Positions 45,599-55,935 of a stretch of 64,000 bases of DNA are shown here, one piece after another. The translations under genes were made by a program, and so were the position numbers. Origin of the DNA: Solirubrobacterales bacterium (GTDB lineage Bacteria; Actinomycetota; Thermoleophilia; Solirubrobacterales; 70-9); contig JAJNAZ010000007.1 of the NCBI GenBank assembly GCA_021155855.1, positions 1 to 64,000 of the forward strand, read 5' to 3'. The notes below the pieces were generated by a model. That model ran no database searches. It was not told where the DNA came from and worked only from the letters and a program-made list of their open reading frames with translations. Numbering within the stretch: position 1 is the first letter of the stretch; each line of letters opens with the position of its first letter.

Positions 45599-46888
45599 CT
45601 ACCGCGGATCCTCGACCGTCTCGAACTCCCCGGTCTCGGGCTCGATCTCCGCCCACTCCCCGGTCTCGGGATCGACGGTGGCGAAGCTCCCGGTCTCCAG
45701 CTCGCGCGCCACTCCCTCGTCGACCTCCGCGTCGGCGACCGGGGCGCCGCGGGCGTCGGCAAGGTCGCGCGAGCGCTTGCGCCGGAGCTTCAGGATCTCG
45801 AGCGTGATCACGAGGTAGACGCTCGCCGCCGCGGCGAGCAGCAGGCAGCCGATCATCACCGCGGCCCAGGCGGCGTCGAAGTTGCCTCGGTCGTCGGAGT
45901 AGGGGACGAAGCGCAGCGCCAGCGCCAGACCGGCCATCACCAACGCCCAGCCGTAGAGGTAGGCCAGGGTGCGCCGTTGCGAGAAGCCGATGTCGGCCAT
46001 CCGGTGGTGCAGGTGCCAGCGGTCGGCGCGGTAGATCGGGCGCCGGTACTTGATTCGCTTCGCGATCACGAAGCCGGTGTCGAAGATCGGCACGGCGAGG
46101 ATCACCAGGGGGAAGAACAGGGCGACGACGGCGTTCGTCTTCAGCGCGCCCTGGACTGCGATCGCTCCGAGCAGGTAGCCGAGCAGATTGGAGCCGGTAT
46201 CGCCCATGAAGCTGGACGCCGGCGGAAAGCCGTGGCGCAGAAACCCGAGCGCTCCTCCCGCGGTGAGGGCGGCGATAACCGCGGCGCTCGTGCGCGATAG
46301 CGACAACGCCACCACGGCGAGCGTGGTGGCACAGATCACGCAGACTCCGGCGGCAAGGCCGTCGACACCGTCGATCAGGTTGATGATGTTGATCACCGCG
46401 ACGATGCCCGCGATCGTCAGCAGGTGGCTGAGCCTGACGTTGCCGGCGAACGGCGCGCTGAGCAGATCGACCGACGCGAGATCTATGCGCCCGAGAAATG
46501 GCAGCGCGAAGCTCGCGACCTGCACGCCGCTGAAGACGGGGATCGCGGCCGCTGCCGCTTGTCCGAGCAGCTTCGGTGCGGCCGACAGGTCCCAGATGTC
46601 GTCCGCAACTCCGACCAGGGCGATTGCGATCGCGCCGCCGAGGATGGCGCGAGTCAGCGGGACCCAGGGCAAAAACAGCGTCCCGCCGATCACGACCGCG
46701 ATCAGGATCGCCAGGCCGCTCAGCTTCGGCGTGGGGACCGTGTGCAGACTGCGCTCGTTGGGGTAGTCGATCGCACCTATTCGGCGCGCAATCCCCTCGG
46801 CGGTGGGGACCATCAACCAGGCGAGCGCTGCCGCTACGACGAACGCGATCAGGGCGAAGATGGGCTCCGGGCGCCCGTCGACGAGCAT
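45599..46888 (-). CDS. WecA/MraY-family phosphoglycosyltransferase
   Basis: A 429-residue polytopic protein of about 11 hydrophobic segments that would transfer a sugar-1-phosphate (typically GlcNAc-1-P) from a UDP-sugar to undecaprenyl phosphate. Active-site blocks are VGVADDIWDL (metal-binding Asp pair), INIINLIDGVDGLAAG, SFMGDTGSNLLGYLL and the cytoplasmic HLHHRMADIGFSQRR histidine loop. The C-terminal 60 residues are cytoplasmic and acidic, with DPETGEWAEIEPETGEFE forming two imperfect repeats. It occupies the rfe/wecA position found just before atpI in actinobacteria. Confidence 0.9.
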   Translation of the reverse strand: MLVDGRPEPIFALIAFVVAAALAWLMVPTAEGIARRIGAIDYPNERSLHTVPTPKLSGLAILIAVVIGGTLFLPWVPLTRAILGGAIAIALVGVADDIWDLSAAPKLLGQAAAAAIPVFSGVQVASFALPFLGRIDLASVDLLSAPFAGNVRLSHLLTIAGIVAVINIINLIDGVDGLAAGVCVICATTLAVVALSLSRTSAAVIAALTAGGALGFLRHGFPPASSFMGDTGSNLLGYLLGAIAVQGALKTNAVVALFFPLVILAVPIFDTGFVIAKRIKYRRPIYRADRWHLHHRMADIGFSQRRTLAYLYGWALVMAGLALALRFVPYSDDRGNFDAAWAAVMIGCLLLAAAASVYLVITLEILKLRRKRSRDLADARGAPVADAEVDEGVARELETGSFATVDPETGEWAEIEPETGEFETVEDPR

Positions 46889-47920: not shown

Positions 47921-49117
47921 CTAGCGGTGAGCGGTGAGCGCCCGCTCCAGAGGTTCCTCCCCGTCCTCCTCGGTGAGCTCCGAGGCGCCGTCGACGGGCG
48001 GAGCGAAGCGGCGAAGACCGAGCGCCTCGAGGTGTCGCGCCTTGATGATCTCAAGGTTGTAGACCATCCAGACCGAGGTCAGCAGCACCGCGAGCGCGCC
48101 CGCGGCGGCGATCGCCGCGTTGGAGACATCGATCTCACCACCCGGCCGCGGGGGCAGGAAGCGAAGCAGGAGCGCGTAGGCGGCGACCAGCCCTGCCCAG
48201 ACGTGCAGGTAGGCGGCGGTTCGGCGCTGCGAGTACCCGATTCGCATGAAGCGATGGTAGAAGTGGTTGTGATCGGCGCCCCAGGCCGGACGCCGGTATT
48301 TCAACCGCTTCAGGACTACGAATGAGGTGTCGAGAATGGGCACGGCGATCACCAGCATGGGCGCAACCAGGGCGATCGTCGCCGCGGTCTTGAGCACACC
48401 CTCGACCGAGACCGTCGCTAACAAGAACCCCAGCGCGAGCGCCCCGGAATCGCCCATGAAGATCTTCGCCGGGTGATAGTTGTGCCACAGGAAGGCGAGC
48501 GTGGCCGCGCAAATGATCCCGGCAAGCACGGCGGCATCGGCGCGACCCCAGGATGCCGCGAGGAGCGCGAAAGACGCGGACGCGATCGCCACGATGCCGG
48601 CGGCAAGCGAGTCCATCCCGTCGATTAGGTTGATCAGGTTCGCGACCAAGACGATCCAGAGAACCGTCAGCGGGTATCCGATCCAACCCACGTCGTGATC
48701 GCCAATCAGCGGCAGGGTGATGTGGCGGAAAGTGAGGTCCGCCCCGATCACGGGGATCAACGAGACCGCAACCACCGCCGCGAGCTTCGCCCAGGGGCTG
48801 ATTCCCCAGATGTCATCCGCCACGCCGACAACGGCGATCGCCCCGGTGCCGATCAGGATCGCCGGATACGGGCCCTCGAGGTCGATGACGAGGAGGGCCG
48901 AGATGATGATCCCGAGCACGATCGCGATCCCGCCGATGCGGGGGATCGCGTGCGTGTGGATGCGCGGGCGGTCGTCGCCGAGGTCGAGTCCGCCGATCCG
49001 CGGGGCCAGCCATCCGACCAGCGGAGTCAGCACGAGCACGATGGCGGCCGCACACACGAAGCCCCAGAGGAACGCTTCGTTGCTTGCCAGCGCGTCCACG
49101 GCATCCGTGAACGACAT
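47921..49117 (-). CDS. Second WecA/MraY-family phosphoglycosyltransferase
   Basis: A 398-residue paralogue of the enzyme encoded at 45599-46888, sharing VVGVADDIWGISPWAKL, NLINLIDGMDSLAAG, KIFMGDSGALALGFLL, the NHFYHRFMRIGYSQRRTAAY loop and the VYNLEIIK tail. About 11 membrane helices. It should start a second lipid-linked glycan or form an alternative first enzyme. ATG 49117 has TATAAC on the minus strand seven bases upstream (49130-49125), so it is probably leaderless and heads the three-gene run that ends before the atp operon. Confidence 0.9.
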   Translation of the reverse strand: MSFTDAVDALASNEAFLWGFVCAAAIVLVLTPLVGWLAPRIGGLDLGDDRPRIHTHAIPRIGGIAIVLGIIISALLVIDLEGPYPAILIGTGAIAVVGVADDIWGISPWAKLAAVVAVSLIPVIGADLTFRHITLPLIGDHDVGWIGYPLTVLWIVLVANLINLIDGMDSLAAGIVAIASASFALLAASWGRADAAVLAGIICAATLAFLWHNYHPAKIFMGDSGALALGFLLATVSVEGVLKTAATIALVAPMLVIAVPILDTSFVVLKRLKYRRPAWGADHNHFYHRFMRIGYSQRRTAAYLHVWAGLVAAYALLLRFLPPRPGGEIDVSNAAIAAAGALAVLLTSVWMVYNLEIIKARHLEALGLRRFAPPVDGASELTEEDGEEPLERALTAHR

Positions 49118-49186
49118 GCGGGTGGTTATACAGCACGCGCGGGACCGTTCGGGCGGCACGGCGCACGGCGGGCTACTATCCGCAGC
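49118..49186. promoter_or_regulatory. Divergent promoter of the polysaccharide locus
   Basis: In 69 bases, TATAAC on the minus strand (49130-49125) lies seven bases before ATG 49117 and TACTAT on the plus strand (49174-49179) lies seven bases before TTG 49187. Both genes lack ribosome binding sites. The two -10 boxes are 43 bases apart, so shared regulation is likely. Confidence 0.55.
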
Positions 49187-50494
49187 TTGACCCAGGCTCT
49201 GCGACCGGCCGCGGTCTTTGAGGACCGCATTGCGACCCGCGAGGCAACGCTCGGGGTCGTCGGCCTCGGATACGCGGGGCTGCCGCTCGCGGTCGCCCAA
49301 GCGGAGGCCGGCTTCGACGTAGTCGGCATCGACCTCGACGAAGCCCGGGTTGACGCGGTGAGCGAGCGTCGCTCGTACCTGATCGACGTGCCGGCACAAC
49401 GGTACGACGAACTCGACGGGCGCCTGCGGGCGACCAGCGACTACTCGGCGGTCGCCGAGCTCGACGCGGTGACGATCTGCGTCCCGACACCGCTGTCGAA
49501 GACCCGCACGCCCGATATCTCCCACGTCGTCTCCGCGGCCGAGGCCGTGGCCGAGAATCTGCGCCCAGATCAGCTCGTCGTGCTGCAGTCGACAACCTAC
49601 CCCGGCACCACCGAGGAGATCGTGCTGCCGATCCTCGAGCGCACCGGGAAGGTGGTGGGAGAGGGCGTTTTCTTGGGCTACGCGCCCGAGCGGGTCGATC
49701 CCGGTAACGCCACATACAACCTCCGCAACACGCCGAAGCTGGTCGCGGGCGTGACCGACGAGTGCCTCAAGCGCACCGAGCTCCTCTTCCGCCAGTTCGT
49801 CGAAACGGTGATTCCGGTGAGTCGACCGATGGTCGCCGAGACCGCGAAGCTGCATGAGAACACGTTTCGCTCGGTCAACATCGCGCTGGCCAATGAGCTG
49901 GCATTGATGTGCGACCGGCTCGGAATCTCGGTCTGGGAGGTGATCGACGCCGCGGCCACGAAGCCGTTCGGATTTTTGTCCCACTACCCCGGCCCCGGCC
50001 TCGGCGGAGACTGCATCCCCGTCGTGCCTCACTTCCTCGCCTGGCGCCTGCGCGAGTACGGGTACTCGGCGCAGCTCATCGACGCCGCCCACGAGATCAA
50101 CGCGCAGATGCCGATCTACGTCGTGCAGAAGATTGCCGACGCGCTCAACGACTCCGGCCTGCCGATCAAGGGCTCGCGGCTTCTGCTGCTCGGCATGGCC
50201 TACAAGCCCGACGTCCACGATACGCGCGAGTCCCCGAGCCTCGAGGTGATGCGACAGCTGATCGCACGCGGCGGCGACGTCCGCTATTGCGACCCGTGGG
50301 TCCAGGAGGTGGAGCTCGAGGGCACCCGCCACCGCGGCGTCGAGTGGTCAGCGGCGGTCGTGGCGGACGCCGACTGCGTCGTCGTGCTCACGGCTCACCG
50401 CCGCTTCCTCGACGAACCACATTGGCGTGACGCGAAGCTGATCGTCGACACCCGCAACGTGGCGCCCCCGGCACCCAATCTCACGCAGCTTTAG
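49187..50494 (+). CDS. UDP-N-acetyl-hexosamine 6-dehydrogenase (WbpA/WecC-like)
   Basis: A 435-residue nucleotide-sugar dehydrogenase. LGVVGLGYAGLPLAVAQAEA binds NAD; LQSTTYPGTTEEIVLPIL, GYAPERVDPGN and AETAKLHENTFRSVNIALAN are specific for the UDP-GlcNAc/UDP-ManNAc dehydrogenase branch; the catalytic Cys is in GLGGDCIPV; the C-terminal domain contains LGMAYKPDVHDTRESP. It makes a UDP-HexNAc-uronic acid. The only start ahead of the Rossmann fold is TTG 49187, seven bases after a TACTAT box. It leads a four-gene plus-strand run. Confidence 0.88.
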   Translation: MTQALRPAAVFEDRIATREATLGVVGLGYAGLPLAVAQAEAGFDVVGIDLDEARVDAVSERRSYLIDVPAQRYDELDGRLRATSDYSAVAELDAVTICVPTPLSKTRTPDISHVVSAAEAVAENLRPDQLVVLQSTTYPGTTEEIVLPILERTGKVVGEGVFLGYAPERVDPGNATYNLRNTPKLVAGVTDECLKRTELLFRQFVETVIPVSRPMVAETAKLHENTFRSVNIALANELALMCDRLGISVWEVIDAAATKPFGFLSHYPGPGLGGDCIPVVPHFLAWRLREYGYSAQLIDAAHEINAQMPIYVVQKIADALNDSGLPIKGSRLLLLGMAYKPDVHDTRESPSLEVMRQLIARGGDVRYCDPWVQEVELEGTRHRGVEWSAAVVADADCVVVLTAHRRFLDEPHWRDAKLIVDTRNVAPPAPNLTQL

Positions 50495-50495
50495 T

Positions 50496-51347
50496 TTGGC
50501 ATCCCTGCTCGTCCTCGGTGCCGGGTATCTCGGCGCGGCTCTCGCCGAGGCGGCCCTCGACGAGGGCGACCAGGTAACTCTCGCGGACAACTGGTACGCG
50601 ACCGAGCGCGATCAGCTCCTGCCCCTCGAACGCCGCGGCGCCCGGGTCGAGAACGCCGACATCCGCGAGCGCGATGCGATGCGCCGGCTGCTCTCCGACG
50701 GCCACGACCGCGTCTACCTGCTCGCGGCCCAGGCGAGCCGGCCACTCGCCTTCGCCGACCCCGATTACACGGAGCAGACGAACCTCGTCGGGCCGCGCGT
50801 CGTAGCCGAGGAGCTGGGAGCCGGTGCGGGCACGGCGCTCGTCTTCGCCAGCTCCCTGCGCGTCTACGGACCGGCGCCGGCCGGCGACGTCGGACCCGAC
50901 CACGGATACGGCTCCCAGGGCGATCTCGCCCACCTGTCGAAACTCTATGCCGAGATGCTGTTGCGCATGCATGCCGCGCAGGCCGGATTCGACCTCGCGA
51001 TCCTGCGCCTCGGAATCGCCTACGGCCCGAGCCCGGTGGAGCACTCGCGGCCCGAGTCGCAAACGGTGGTCGACAAGTTCCGTCGCCTGGCCGCATCGGG
51101 ATCGCCCCTGCCACTCGATCGCGGCGGGGAGGCAACGATCGGAGTCGTGCACGTCTCCGACGCTGCTCGCATTCTTCGCGCGGCGCCGACGGAAAGGGGC
51201 ATTTCGGTTGCCAACGTCGCTGCGGAATCGACGACGGTCGCAGCGGTGGCGGCCATGGCCGAGGGCCGCGAGCCGGCCGCAGGGCCGGCATGCCGCTTCG
51301 TGACCCCGTTCGATTACAGGCACCGGCTCGCCGACTACCTAGGATGA
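50496..51347 (+). CDS. NAD-dependent epimerase/dehydratase-like SDR lacking the catalytic tyrosine
   Basis: A 283-residue extended SDR. The nucleotide loop is LGAGYLG (Gly8, 10, 13), the wedge strand VYLLAAQASRP and the Ser strand VFASSLRVYG are present, but where YxxxK is expected the protein has AHLSK (Ala145, Lys149), so the catalytic Tyr is replaced by Ala. The overall shape is still epimerase-like (LRLGIAYGPSP, GVVHVSDAARI). TTG 50496 starts two bases after the dehydrogenase stop. It may be a non-redox or partner subunit, or use another residue; substrate unknown, presumably a UDP-sugar. Confidence 0.78.
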   Translation: MASLLVLGAGYLGAALAEAALDEGDQVTLADNWYATERDQLLPLERRGARVENADIRERDAMRRLLSDGHDRVYLLAAQASRPLAFADPDYTEQTNLVGPRVVAEELGAGAGTALVFASSLRVYGPAPAGDVGPDHGYGSQGDLAHLSKLYAEMLLRMHAAQAGFDLAILRLGIAYGPSPVEHSRPESQTVVDKFRRLAASGSPLPLDRGGEATIGVVHVSDAARILRAAPTERGISVANVAAESTTVAAVAAMAEGREPAAGPACRFVTPFDYRHRLADYLG

Positions 51348-51378: not shown

Positions 51379-52263
51379 ATGAGACTCGTCGTCACAGGCG
51401 CGACCGGTTTTTTGGGTTGGCGCGCGGCGACCCTGCTCGCTGAAGCGGGACACGACGTCCTCGCCGTCGCCAAGCCGCGCGGCGCGAAACGCGTGCACGC
51501 CACCGACCTGGTCACAACCGAGCTCGATGCCGGCGCCCCCGCGGCACGCGACCTGATCTCCGGCCGCGACGCCATCCTTCACTTCGCAGGAATTCCCGAT
51601 CCCGCCCGTGCCCGGGCCGATCCCGCGCAGGCCGTGCGCGAGAACGTGGGCACGACCTTGAATCTGCTCGCTGGGTGCCTCGAGCACGGTGCGGCACTGC
51701 TGTACCCGTCCACCGTGAGGGCCGCTGTCGAGCCGCCCCCGGACGTCTATGCCCTCTCCAAGTGGCTCGGCGAACAGGTGTGTCGCGAGCACCCGGCGCC
51801 GGCGACCGTGATGCGCATCAGCTCCGCATACGGGCCTGGTCAGGTCGCCTGGGAGGGGGCGACGGGCGCGATTGCGGCCTTCACGGCCCGCGCGCTGGAG
51901 GGCGCCCCGATCGTGATCGAAGGCGATCCCGACCGCACGCGAGACTTCGTCTACGTCGACGATGTCGTCGCCGCGCTGGAAGCGTTCATTAGCGCGGGTC
52001 GATGGAACCAGACGATCACGCTCGCGAGCGGGGTCGCCACCTCGCTGCGGCAGGCGGCCGAGCTCGTGCGCGAGGCGACCGGCTCGGAGTCCGAGATCCA
52101 AACGCGGGCCGGAGAGCTGGCCGAGGGGGAGGACATCAGCTACCCGGTCGCACCCACGGCCCTAGAGCTAGGCTTTCGATCGCGCCCGCTCGCCGAGGGC
52201 ATCGCCTCGTATGTCGCCTGGATCCAACCCCATCCCGCTGCTCAAGGCCGCGCCCGAGCCTGA
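51379..52263 (+). CDS. NAD-dependent nucleotide-sugar epimerase (extended SDR)
   Basis: A 294-residue extended SDR. TGATGFLGWRAATLL binds NAD, AILHFAGI and LLYPSTVRA are the core strands, and YALSKWLGE supplies the catalytic YxxxK missing in the preceding paralogue. DFVYVDDVVAALEAF and the downstream region fit UDP-glucose/UDP-GlcNAc epimerases and dehydratases. The 3' end overlaps the TIM-barrel/CapD fusion gene by 53 bases, so translation is linked. The exact sugar is not deducible. Confidence 0.87.
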   Translation: MRLVVTGATGFLGWRAATLLAEAGHDVLAVAKPRGAKRVHATDLVTTELDAGAPAARDLISGRDAILHFAGIPDPARARADPAQAVRENVGTTLNLLAGCLEHGAALLYPSTVRAAVEPPPDVYALSKWLGEQVCREHPAPATVMRISSAYGPGQVAWEGATGAIAAFTARALEGAPIVIEGDPDRTRDFVYVDDVVAALEAFISAGRWNQTITLASGVATSLRQAAELVREATGSESEIQTRAGELAEGEDISYPVAPTALELGFRSRPLAEGIASYVAWIQPHPAAQGRARA

Positions 52264-54223
52264 GCAGATCGCCGACCGGCTGGCTGGAGGCCCCCCGCAG
52301 GGGCTCGAGCTCTGCCTCGCGGGCGATCACATTGCCGACGAGGATTCGCTGCGCCGCGCAATTCGGGCATGCGATGGTCTCAGCAAGCAAGGCCTGAAGC
52401 TCACAGCCGAGGCCCCGGTGAGTTGGCCGAGTGGCGCTTTCGTGCGCGTCGATCGGCTCGATACCGAGGCAGAGTCGGGGATCGAACGGAGCGCCGAGTT
52501 CGCGCGGGCCATCGGATCGCCGGTTCTCACCATTCATTTGTTCATCCCGCTCGACCCGGCGGAGTTTCGAGTCGCCGGCCCGGTGGACCGCGAATCGGTC
52601 GAGCGCTTCCTGCGCTTTTACGTCGAGGCCTGCACCAGTCGGGGCATCACGCCGCTGATCGAGAACGTCCCCCCGGTGCTCCGCATGCGCACGGGCGGTA
52701 TCTACCTCTCCCAGGTCGGGGGTCACTGGCGTGACCTGAACGAGTGGCGCGGACGGATTCCGGAGCTCGCGTTCACGCTGGATACCTCCCACGCCGCCCT
52801 TTTCCGTTCGTTCGCCAGGGCGTATCCGGCGCTCTTTAAGGTCGAGTGCCCGGAGGAGCTCGCGCTCGAGCGCTACGTCGCCGAGCTCGGCGCGGCGACC
52901 CGGGTGGCACACGTATCGAATGCCCGCGGTCTGCTCGGCGAGGGCCTTCCCTACGGAGCGGGAGAGCTCGACCTCGACCCTATCGTCAGGCGCCTCGGTG
53001 AGCTCGTCCCCTACATCGTCGCCGAGATCAACGAGCCCGACCCGGCTCGCTCGGTGGAGATGAAGGAGGGGTACGCGGCGATCGAGTCCGCTCTGGCAGC
53101 GGAGCACAACCCGGCGCCTTTAGCTCGGCAACCGACGCTCGGCGCCCGCGACCGGTTCGACTGGCAGGCGGTGCTGCGACGACGGGACCCGGTCCCATCG
53201 ATGCTCGAGCTCGAACAGCTCTTCGGCGGGCGGCGCGTACTGATCACAGGGGGCGGCGGCTCGATCGGCCGAGCGCTTGCCACCTTCTTGCTCGGCTTCC
53301 GACCGGAGCGCATCGTGCTCCTGGACGCGCACGAGCCGTCGCTCGCAACCGACCGCCGCGCTCGTGATCCCGCCGACCTCGAACGCGTCTCGCACCTGCT
53401 TGGCGACGTGCGCAATGGGGAGCGACTCGAGTCCACGCTTGCCGCCGAGAAACCCGAGGTCGTCTTTCACCTCGCCGCGTACAAGCACGTCGACTGGGCC
53501 GAGCGGTTCCCGGCGGAGTTCGTCGACACCAACCTGCGAGGGAGCTGGAACGTGCTGCGAGCCGCTGAGGCAAGCGCGGTTCAGACGGTGGTCGTGGCCT
53601 CGACCGACAAGGCGGCGCTGGCAGGCAGCCTCTATGCCCGCACCAAACGCTTGATGGAGCAGCTCACCGCCGACGCCGGGGACGGGCGACTCGCGGTGCG
53701 CTTCGTCAACGTGCTCGCCAGCGCCGGCAGCGCCTCGGAGCTTTTCTTGCGCCAAGCCCGCGGCGGGGTCCCGCTCACGATCACCGACGCGGGCATGGTC
53801 CGCTACTGGATCACGATGGGTCATGCGACTTGCCTTGCGGCACACGCGGCACTCCTGGCCACGGCCGGCAAGGGGCTCGCGGCTCCGGCAGACCCGGTCA
53901 TGATGACGGTCGGCGAGCTGGCCGCGCGAATCTGGCGCGAGTGCGGGCGCGATGGTACGCCGGAGATCACCGCGATCGGCATTCGCGGCGGGGAGACGAT
54001 GACCGAGGTATTGACCGGCCCCGGCGAGCACCTGACCGATGAAGCTCAAGCTCACCAGGGGGTGGCCGCCATCTCGGGCGGGCCTGGAAGATCTTGCGCC
54101 GCCTGGGTCGCCGAGCGACTCAAGGAGCGAGGCGTACGCACGCGGGACGCTAACGCGGTGTGGCTCGAGGCGCTCGGCCGTCCCGACTTGCTCGAGGCCC
54201 AGACGGTGTCGAACTCGGCTTAG
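52211..54223 (+). CDS. Fusion of a xylose-isomerase-like TIM barrel with a CapD-type nucleotide-sugar SDR
   Basis: A 670-residue two-domain protein. Residues about 15-300 form an AP-endonuclease-2/sugar-isomerase-type TIM barrel with its metal-site residues in place: Glu151 (IENVPP), Asp191 and His194 (LDTSHA), His234 (AHVSNARG) and Glu272 (AEINEPD). Residues about 335-650 form a CapD/FlaA1-type polysaccharide-biosynthesis SDR with ITGGGGSIGRAL (346-356), HLAAYKHVDWAE, ASTDKAAL and YARTK (Tyr475, Lys479), plus the late GGETMTEVL. CapD enzymes are UDP-HexNAc 4,6-dehydratases or epimerases. I know no standard name for the fusion. No membrane helices precede the CapD part. It ends by overlapping the convergent GT4 gene by four bases. 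Confidence 0.8.
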   Translation: MSPGSNPIPLLKAAPEPEQIADRLAGGPPQGLELCLAGDHIADEDSLRRAIRACDGLSKQGLKLTAEAPVSWPSGAFVRVDRLDTEAESGIERSAEFARAIGSPVLTIHLFIPLDPAEFRVAGPVDRESVERFLRFYVEACTSRGITPLIENVPPVLRMRTGGIYLSQVGGHWRDLNEWRGRIPELAFTLDTSHAALFRSFARAYPALFKVECPEELALERYVAELGAATRVAHVSNARGLLGEGLPYGAGELDLDPIVRRLGELVPYIVAEINEPDPARSVEMKEGYAAIESALAAEHNPAPLARQPTLGARDRFDWQAVLRRRDPVPSMLELEQLFGGRRVLITGGGGSIGRALATFLLGFRPERIVLLDAHEPSLATDRRARDPADLERVSHLLGDVRNGERLESTLAAEKPEVVFHLAAYKHVDWAERFPAEFVDTNLRGSWNVLRAAEASAVQTVVVASTDKAALAGSLYARTKRLMEQLTADAGDGRLAVRFVNVLASAGSASELFLRQARGGVPLTITDAGMVRYWITMGHATCLAAHAALLATAGKGLAAPADPVMMTVGELAARIWRECGRDGTPEITAIGIRGGETMTEVLTGPGEHLTDEAQAHQGVAAISGGPGRSCAAWVAERLKERGVRTRDANAVWLEALGRPDLLEAQTVSNSA

Positions 54224-55248
54224 CGCCGCTCGGCGATCGCCCGTTCGAGCACGGCTGCCATGCGCGCGGCCTGGCGGCGGACGTCATGCTCGGCTGCCGC
54301 CTTGCGCGCGGCTGGATTGGGCGCCGGCAGCGTCGCGGCGCGCTCCAGGGCCGCGGCGAGGCCGGCCGTGTCGTTGGGATCGGCAAGCACGCCAGTTTCC
54401 GGGGTAACGAACTCGGGCGGCCCGCCGACGGTGGTGGCGACGACGCTTCGCTCCATCGCCATCCCCTCGAGCGTCGCTTGGCCGAAGGGCTCGATCTGCG
54501 ACGGCTGACAGAGGACGTCGCAGGCGGCGATCCAGCGCGGGACCTCGGCCTGCGGGATGCGGCCGGTGATCCGCACCCCGGTGCGGCCCTCGAGCTCGGG
54601 GCGCAGGGGACCGTCGCCGACGAAAGTGAGCCGGCCCCGGCCGAGGCGCGCGAACGCGACGGCGAGCCGAACGACGTTCTTGCGCTCGATCAGCGAGCCG
54701 ACGCACAAAAACGCCGGGCCCTCACCCTCCCAGCCGAGCTCGCGGCGTGCCGCGGCGGCAGGTCGTGGGGCGAACGCGTCCAGGTCGACCCCGCAGTCGG
54801 CGATCGTGAGCTTCGACCGCGCCGCCGGGATCCGCTCGGCGAGACGGTCGGCAAGCCATTGCGAGTTGGCGATCACCGCGGCCGACCGGCACAGCACCGA
54901 ACGGGTCGCGAGCGTCACGCCGCGAACGCGGCCGAGGTTGGCGACGTCCTGACCGTGGGCCATGACCACCAACGGCTTCCGAGCGGCTCTTGCCGCGATT
55001 GCGCCGGCGGCGCCGGTGGGAAAGAGAAAGTGCGCGAAGATGACGTCGGGGCGCGCGCGCCGCGCTCTGGCCGCGGCGTCGCGGGCCAGGCGGGCATACT
55101 CCGAGCGGGGCCCGCCTCGGCGGCTGATCGCGACGACCTCGACCTCGTTTCCGAGTTCCTCCAACTCCCGAGCCAGCGGCACCAAGAAGCTGCCGAGGTC
55201 GGGGTGCGCGGGGCTCGGCCACATCTGGGTGACGAGCAGGATCCGCAC
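54220..55248 (-). CDS. GT4-family glycosyltransferase
   Basis: A 342-residue GT-B enzyme. The N-terminal half starts RILLVTQMWPSPAHPDLGSF with a glycine-containing acceptor loop and DVIFAHFLFPTGAAG; the C-terminal half has FLCVGSLIERKNV, LTFVGDGPLRPEL, GRIPQAEVPRWIAACDVLCQ and the retaining-enzyme motif EPFGQATLEGMAMERSVVAT. It adds a sugar to a growing lipid-linked glycan at the cytoplasmic face. GTG 55248 is preferred because TAAGTT (minus strand, 55261-55256) is seven bases upstream and the family starts at this strand; ATG 55311 would add 21 residues. Confidence 0.88.
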   Translation of the reverse strand: MRILLVTQMWPSPAHPDLGSFLVPLARELEELGNEVEVVAISRRGGPRSEYARLARDAAARARRARPDVIFAHFLFPTGAAGAIAARAARKPLVVMAHGQDVANLGRVRGVTLATRSVLCRSAAVIANSQWLADRLAERIPAARSKLTIADCGVDLDAFAPRPAAAARRELGWEGEGPAFLCVGSLIERKNVVRLAVAFARLGRGRLTFVGDGPLRPELEGRTGVRITGRIPQAEVPRWIAACDVLCQPSQIEPFGQATLEGMAMERSVVATTVGGPPEFVTPETGVLADPNDTAGLAAALERAATLPAPNPAARKAAAEHDVRRQAARMAAVLERAIAERR

Positions 55249-55323
55249 TCGGCGAAACTTACGCGGCGGCGCTAGGTTAGGACGAGCGGGGGCAAATTCG
55301 AGCTCCGACATAGGGAGGTATCC

Positions 55324-55935
55324 GTGATGGAGCAAAGGAGAGGTTGGTTGCCGTCGCCGGCGATGCTGGTCGCGTTCATCGCGCTGGTGGCCGCGCTGAC
55401 CGGTTCGGCCGTCGCCCTGCAGGGCAAGAACTCGGTGAAGTCGAACGACATCGCCCCGGGGGCCGTCAAAGGCAAGGACATCCACACGGAGGCGGTCAAA
55501 CCACCGAAGCTCAACCTGATCAAGGTCGACGGCGAGGCCGGGCCGCTGCCCACGGCATCGGTAGCGGCAACGGATCTCGGCGGGCCCTCGGTTACGGTCA
55601 ATGTCCCCGAAACCGGACTGGTTGCGATCTACGCCCGCGGCACCGGTGAGATCGACCCCGGAGGCAACGGCAGGCGTGCGCAAGTGCATCTGTTCGAACC
55701 GAAGCTGTTCCCCTCGGCGCCCAAGATCATCGAGTTCGCATCCTCGGAGCCACAGCTTCGGATCAGCACTCCCGGATCAGGTGACCCCGACGGCGCGGTG
55801 AACCTCGCCCGCGGTGGCTGGATCGTGTTTCCCGCCGACGAGGGCCGGTACACGTTCACGCTGTTCTACAGCGTCGCAGGCGGCGGAACTGCGACGTTCA
55901 CGAACACCGGTCTCTGGGCCGGCGTCGTCGGCTAG
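55324..55935 (+). CDS. Secreted beta-rich protein, unknown function
   Basis: A 203-residue exported protein. The leader contains PSPAMLVAFIALVAALTGSA, followed by GKNSVKSNDIAPGAVKGKDI, a repeat-like phrase I associate with Solirubrobacterales surface proteins (KNGSITGKDVKNGS style). The rest is beta-rich with no cysteine and no catalytic motif, suggesting a lectin or collagen-like head domain. AGGGAGGT at 55312-55319 is a clear ribosome site serving GTG 55324 or ATG 55327. It is divergent from the GT4 gene and convergent with glyA with no gap. Confidence 0.75.
   Translation: MMEQRRGWLPSPAMLVAFIALVAALTGSAVALQGKNSVKSNDIAPGAVKGKDIHTEAVKPPKLNLIKVDGEAGPLPTASVAATDLGGPSVTVNVPETGLVAIYARGTGEIDPGGNGRRAQVHLFEPKLFPSAPKIIEFASSEPQLRISTPGSGDPDGAVNLARGGWIVFPADEGRYTFTLFYSVAGGGTATFTNTGLWAGVVG

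Follow-up and report, generated by a model that had tools for sequence, protein, structure and literature searches.

A conserved TIM-barrel–CapD fusion enzyme of Thermoleophilia and its split counterpart in Chloroflexota point to an undescribed surface-sugar route

A single gene in the DNA that we analyzed, a 64,000-nucleotide stretch from a Solirubrobacterales bacterium (hereafter the window), encodes a real and conserved two-part enzyme in which a TIM barrel resembling D-tagatose 3-epimerase is fused to a CapD-type nucleotide-sugar dehydratase. The two domains themselves belong to known families, and in Chloroflexota their counterparts are separate, adjacent genes of what appears to be the same pathway. 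Our preferred reading, which we hold with slightly more belief than doubt, is that the fusion is a bifunctional sugar-nucleotide enzyme whose CapD domain dehydrates a UDP-HexNAc and whose TIM barrel inverts the carbon beside the new ketone. Taken with its neighbors, the fusion suggests that an unusual surface sugar is made by an undescribed route.

Results

The fusion gene occupies positions 52211..54223 of the forward strand as a single open frame of 670 amino acids. Its ATG start coincides with an N-terminus, MSxGSxxIPLLKAAPE, that is kept in relatives and thereby supports the start at 52211, and its GC content by codon position is coding-like over the full length, even across the junction. 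A Pfam search placed a PF01261 TIM barrel in the N-terminal part and a PF02719 CapD domain in the C-terminal part, so that both the open frame and the domain search confirm what the initial annotation had read as one 670-residue protein joining the two. Both active sites, which had been described there as intact, are invariant in Thermoleophilia fusions: the metal residues E151, D191, H234, and E272 together with H194 in the barrel, and D466, K467, Y475, and K479 in the CapD domain, where the NAD loop TGGGGSIG is also present. A model of the full-length fusion, built from 10 sequences, reached a pLDDT of 65, which is too low for conclusions on the domain interface. In a plasmid collection, searches matched the CapD domain only and the fusion was absent.

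We examined how widely this architecture occurs by using the N-terminal half as a query against 199 genomes of the same class, of which 11, the window's own included, were positive. These 11 sequences lie mostly in open frames of about 660 to 800 amino acids, while one runs off its contig, and ten full-length fusions aligned with 59 to 68% identity to the window protein. A scan of genome contigs returned 22 loci titled as Thermoleophilia groups or unplaced Actinobacteria, and among them every contig that reaches the second domain has the fusion. In a larger sample of the class, 20 of 399 genomes were positive (about 5% of sampled Thermoleophilia), and no split form was found in these 399 genomes save for fragments apparently cut by contig ends. 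The search for further proteins of the same architecture that the initial annotation had proposed therefore yielded about 20 Thermoleophilia genomes. Recurrence of the same fusion in many independent assemblies rules out an assembly artefact. In a phylogenetic tree, a fully supported branch separates all Thermoleophilia TIM domains from the others, a topology consistent with one fusion event in the class.

In the window, the block is flanked by ATP synthase genes on one side and by glyA/sua5/prmC/prfA on the other. Since the glyA-side neighbors are seen again in many Thermoleophilia loci, this arrangement argues for vertical inheritance of the cassette with loss rather than recent transfer. 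The order shared by Thermoleophilia is nucleotide-sugar dehydrogenase, SDR1, SDR2, and fusion, accompanied by a divergently oriented PF00953 gene with a DUF354 gene next to it. SDR2 (51379..52263, forward strand), which has a 53-nt overlap with the fusion gene, is an extended SDR whose YxxxK motif is intact in all 42 homologues; it only weakly matches a WbjC-type reductase model and is a candidate 4-ketoreductase or epimerase. SDR1 (50496..51347, forward strand) is also an extended SDR, with the motif AHLSK in which the catalytic Tyr is replaced. None of the 40 homologues, which come from both phyla, retains that Tyr: the position is taken by A, S, T, V, or N, and an invariant His follows one residue later. 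SDR1 is therefore not a standard SDR oxidoreductase; some Chloroflexota copies are also without the Lys. The expectation that the fusion sits with a nucleotide-sugar dehydrogenase and two SDRs thus held, although one of those SDRs has no catalytic Tyr.

The nucleotide-sugar dehydrogenase (TIGR03026; 49187..50494, forward strand) likely starts at a TTG at 49187; the listed GTG at 48695 overlaps an opposite-strand gene. That gene, divergent from the dehydrogenase, encodes a PF00953 phosphoglycosyltransferase of the WecA/MraY type (47921..49117, reverse strand), whose Chloroflexota counterpart is found directly 3' of CapD. The two longest open reading frames of this region, 48695-50494 (forward) and 47921-50332 (reverse), run over each other on opposite strands. 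Judging by homology and start codons, the true starts appear to lie near 49187 and 49117, respectively, and the divergent genes would then be about 70 bp apart. In Thermoleophilia, the cassette has a constant partner in the DUF354 protein (PF04007; 46903..48054, reverse strand), and a second PF00953 phosphoglycosyltransferase (45599-46888, reverse strand) stands two genes from the first. Convergent with the fusion gene is a GT4-type glycosyltransferase (54220..55689, reverse strand), which accompanies the cassette in some Thermoleophilia loci only. No kinase, phosphatase, nucleotidyltransferase, or hydrolase was recognized in the cassette, and the cassette genes scanned matched neither a cupin family nor a 2-epimerase family, as CapF- and CapG-type partners would.

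Four Chloroflexota loci also came up in the scan of genome contigs; in these, TIM and CapD are two separate genes, directly adjacent and in the same order. A profile search with the TIM domain only was positive in 32 of 301 Chloroflexota genomes (around a tenth), and in all 24 of the Chloroflexota loci that we read, TIM is immediately followed by CapD and CapD in turn by a PF00953 phosphoglycosyltransferase. The query contained no CapD sequence, so the adjacency of TIM and CapD constitutes independent evidence. SDR1 and/or SDR2 lie upstream in nearly all 24 loci, giving the order SDR1-SDR2-TIM-CapD-phosphoglycosyltransferase with small variations; one locus has neither SDR above threshold, and another has the SDRs reversed. 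The TIM stop codon falls 51 to 160 nt upstream of the CapD domain, and since that domain needs a short N-terminal stretch, the two genes abut. Because the split genes adjoin in Chloroflexota, the fusion unites two neighbors of one conserved pathway, and the membership of TIM and CapD in one pathway is well supported. The initial annotation had foreseen that close homologues might be encoded as two separate genes and the fusion prove artefactual: such separate genes do exist, but the fusion is not an artefact. The nucleotide-sugar dehydrogenase occurs in just 1 of the 24 Chloroflexota loci and is outside the cross-phylum core, and the DUF354 gene was not found in the Chloroflexota loci read.

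The TIM-barrel domain (52211..53107, forward strand; approximately residues 1 to 299) gave a borderline PF01261 match when the whole protein was searched (residues 57-277, 28.8 bits, under the cut-off of 31.1), but passed that cut-off when searched alone (31.3 bits), and all 11 TIM sequences scanned match the family, with a best E value of 4.3e-15. Across 47 TIM domains from two phyla, E151, D191, H194, and E272 are invariant where present, while at position 234 His occurs in 41 domains and Gln in 4. The metal ligand E151 opens the motif ENVPPVLRMR (52661..52690, forward strand; residues 151-160), which continues into a hairpin with two almost invariant arginines, R158 in 46 of 47 sequences and R160 in 47 of 47. 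We infer that these arginines may hold the diphosphate of a nucleotide sugar.

An AlphaFold2 model of the TIM domain, built from 43 sequences, was of high quality (pLDDT 94.5, pTM 0.92) and placed E151, D191, H234, and E272 at the C-terminal ends of strands 5, 6, 7, and 8, so that the domain is predicted to have a D-tagatose 3-epimerase-type fold with a Glu/Asp/His/Glu metal site at strands 5 to 8. The top solved matches in Foldseek were the D-tagatose 3-epimerase-like MJ1311, the L-ribulose, D-tagatose, and D-allulose 3-epimerases, and YcjR, and the MJ1311 structure (3wqo) aligned to the model with TM scores of 0.64/0.74. A sequence profile of the domain finds MJ1311 as well (E 3.8e-4), aligning its ENMP with ENVPP and its DIGHA with DTSHA, while the LRMR hairpin that follows ENVPP is absent from this nearest solved relative. 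A profile of 11 close TIM sequences had no match in the PDB until Chloroflexota sequences were added. Since identity to the solved epimerases is 12 to 19%, the reaction type assigned to the domain rests on fold and metal site, and the superfamily also includes isomerases and dehydratases. The barrel had been called xylose-isomerase-like in the initial annotation; the PF01261 assignment stands, while the nearest families are C3/C4 keto-sugar epimerases rather than xylose isomerase. Among the listed top 50 PDB matches there was no xylose isomerase proper, one entry being merely named a xylose isomerase domain protein, and the TIM domain had no NCBIfam match. In another Actinomycetota family (genome G508, L057 2-1870, reverse strand), a distantly related TIM domain is joined to NeuB plus SAF, a nonulosonate synthase, and that fusion adjoins a CMP-sialate synthetase-like gene.

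The CapD domain (53162..54043, forward strand) was matched by PF02719 at residues 343-611 with 196 bits against a cut-off of 20.2 (E 1e-57). By sequence and by fold, its closest solved relatives are Pen, CapE, PglF, FlaA1, and WbjB, all of them 4,6-dehydratases, and with these enzymes it shares the NAD loop, STDKA (464-468), and Y475xxxK479; the S(S/T)DK and YxxxK motifs are retained by the CapD domains of Thermoleophilia and Chloroflexota alike. It differs from them in that the family motifs SRGSV and FGNV read SAGSA and VNV in Thermoleophilia fusions, and it falls below the NCBIfam equivalog cut-offs of PseB (122.7 of 407.75 bits) and FnlA (85.1 of 730 bits). In addition, where those dehydratases carry membrane helices or nothing ahead of the domain, the fusion carries a TIM barrel. 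The domain brings an N-terminal motif of its own, FDWxxVLxRRDPVP, from about residue 317. Given that this junction motif is also the N-terminus of Chloroflexota CapD proteins, the end of the TIM barrel is joined to a complete CapD. The motif further resembles the segment preceding the domain in a long CapD of the same genome (L002), and the TIM barrel thus occupies the place of the membrane part in the long protein.

Discussion

D-tagatose-3-epimerase-type enzymes invert the carbon beside a ketone via a metal-bound enediolate, and a CapD-type dehydratase could supply a ketone to such an enzyme. We propose that the CapD domain, through bound NAD(P), D466/K467, and Y475/K479, turns a UDP-HexNAc (probably UDP-GlcNAc) into a UDP-4-keto-6-deoxy-HexNAc by oxidation and dehydration, and that the metal-dependent TIM barrel then inverts the carbon beside the new 4-ketone, most likely C3 and possibly C5. 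E151 and E272 would take off and give back the proton, while the metal bound by E151, D191, H234, and E272 would stabilize the enediolate, as in D-tagatose 3-epimerase and YcjR. SDR2 would reduce the 4-ketone after the TIM step, SDR1 would probably have a non-standard role, and the PF00953 enzyme would move the sugar phosphate onto polyprenyl phosphate, starting a surface glycan. The substrate, position, order, and product of this pathway are all inferred. Two consecutive steps on one sugar had been suggested in the initial annotation, and this idea gains strong support from the domains being fused in Thermoleophilia and encoded side by side in 24 of 24 Chloroflexota loci. The pathway outlined there, combining a sugar isomerase with a UDP-HexNAc dehydrogenase, needs revision on both points, since the barrel is nearer to alpha-keto-sugar epimerases and the dehydrogenase is nearly always missing from the Chloroflexota loci.

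Several characterized systems resemble parts of this scheme. The D-tagatose, D-allulose, and L-ribulose 3-epimerases share the TIM-barrel fold and metal site, but the genomic partners of the fused barrel handle nucleotide sugars rather than free ketoses, and the ENVPPVLRMR hairpin is additional in our domain. YcjR of Escherichia coli (6wn6) has the same fold and offers a precedent in that it epimerizes the carbon beside a ring ketone on an intact glycoside; its activity is cited as that of a 3-keto-D-glucoside 4-epimerase (PMC11543891). However, YcjR is 14% identical to the TIM domain, its substrate is not a nucleotide sugar, and unlike the fused barrel it is the product of a separate, unfused gene in a cluster for carbohydrate import and metabolism. 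A related pathway is that of UDP-L-FucNAc (CapE-CapF-CapG or FnlA-FnlB-FnlC), in which a CapD-type enzyme makes a 4-keto-6-deoxy sugar, epimerization at C5 and C3 follows, and C4 is then reduced (PMC3699295). The CapD-type dehydratase, epimerization beside the 4-ketone, an SDR reductase, and a surface polysaccharide are common to that pathway and our scheme, but there the epimerizations are carried out by the SDR CapE (C5) and the SDR-cupin CapF (C3), whereas here a TIM barrel would do so, and the cassette adds the Tyr-less SDR and the PF00953 enzyme.

Among openly licensed papers, we found no characterized enzyme of the D-tagatose 3-epimerase type with a nucleotide sugar as its substrate, nor the fusion, its split operon, or a TIM barrel beside a sugar-nucleotide dehydratase. 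The same literature held nothing relevant on CapD beside sugar isomerases or on Thermoleophilia wall polysaccharides, and no surface-glycan chemistry of Chloroflexota or Thermoleophilia turned up in it. The suggestion of a novel sugar-nucleotide pathway is supported by a conserved operon of which we found no description in these papers. A more far-reaching version of our proposal, which we put forward tentatively and at a little under an even chance, is that the TIM barrel acts directly on the nucleotide-linked 4-keto sugar while fused to its dehydratase, within an undescribed five-enzyme route, Tyr-less SDR included, to a new lipid-linked 6-deoxy-hexosamine common to Chloroflexota and Thermoleophilia. 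Epimerization of 4-keto nucleotide sugars is known from the cupin (RmlC, CapF) and SDR (CapE) folds. If our proposal is true, a TIM-barrel metalloenzyme would be a third solution to this problem and would open a new route to rare sugars, and the fusion and its split counterparts would be a direct guide to which enzymes work together.

Other assignments of the barrel have to be weighed against epimerization. It is unlikely that the domain is instead a 3,4-ketoisomerase that moves the ketone from C4 to C3 on the nucleotide-linked sugar, after which SDR2 would reduce C3. Cupins such as FdtA and QdtA are 3,4-ketoisomerases on nucleotide-linked sugars, and this chemistry would suit the same superfamily and the same metal enediolate, as neither fold nor metal site separates isomerases from epimerases; however, the top structural matches are epimerases, and known 3-keto intermediates are usually aminated, whereas no aminotransferase was recognized in the cassette with the profiles used. 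The best characterized members of the family would lead one to expect action on sugars that are free or phosphorylated, either ahead of activation or once released. The distant relative fused to NeuB-SAF in G508, for which a free sugar would be the substrate, keeps this reading alive. Yet the TIM barrel is always beside or fused with the dehydratase, its additional Arg-rich hairpin is nearly invariant, and all recognized partners use nucleotide sugars. The PF00953 enzyme in which the cassette ends needs a nucleotide sugar, and the enzymes that would handle or reactivate a released sugar were not recognized, so the isomerization of a released keto sugar that had been entertained in the initial annotation becomes less likely; we judge action on free or phosphorylated sugars unlikely overall.

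The CapD domain might for its part be a 4-epimerase or an oxidoreductase on another nucleotide sugar, so that the pathway would be a different one. The altered SAGSA and VNV motifs and the missed PseB and FnlA cut-offs fit such a change of function, but the catalytic set of FlaA1-type dehydratases is kept in both phyla and the closest structures are all dehydratases, which makes this quite improbable. We consider it more improbable still that the barrel is a structural or regulatory module standing in for the membrane or N-terminal part of a WbpM-type CapD. Its position matches that of the N-terminal part of the membrane-anchored L002 protein, but the conservation of its metal ligands and of many residues of the active site extends over 47 sequences from two phyla, even where TIM is a separate gene.

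The long CapD protein just mentioned (L002 1369-3315, reverse strand, contig C63) has a membrane-like N-terminal region, and its presence means that the fusion is not the sole candidate UDP-HexNAc dehydratase in this genome. At the position of the catalytic Tyr, both this protein and CapE have Met, whereas the fusion keeps the Tyr, like FlaA1.
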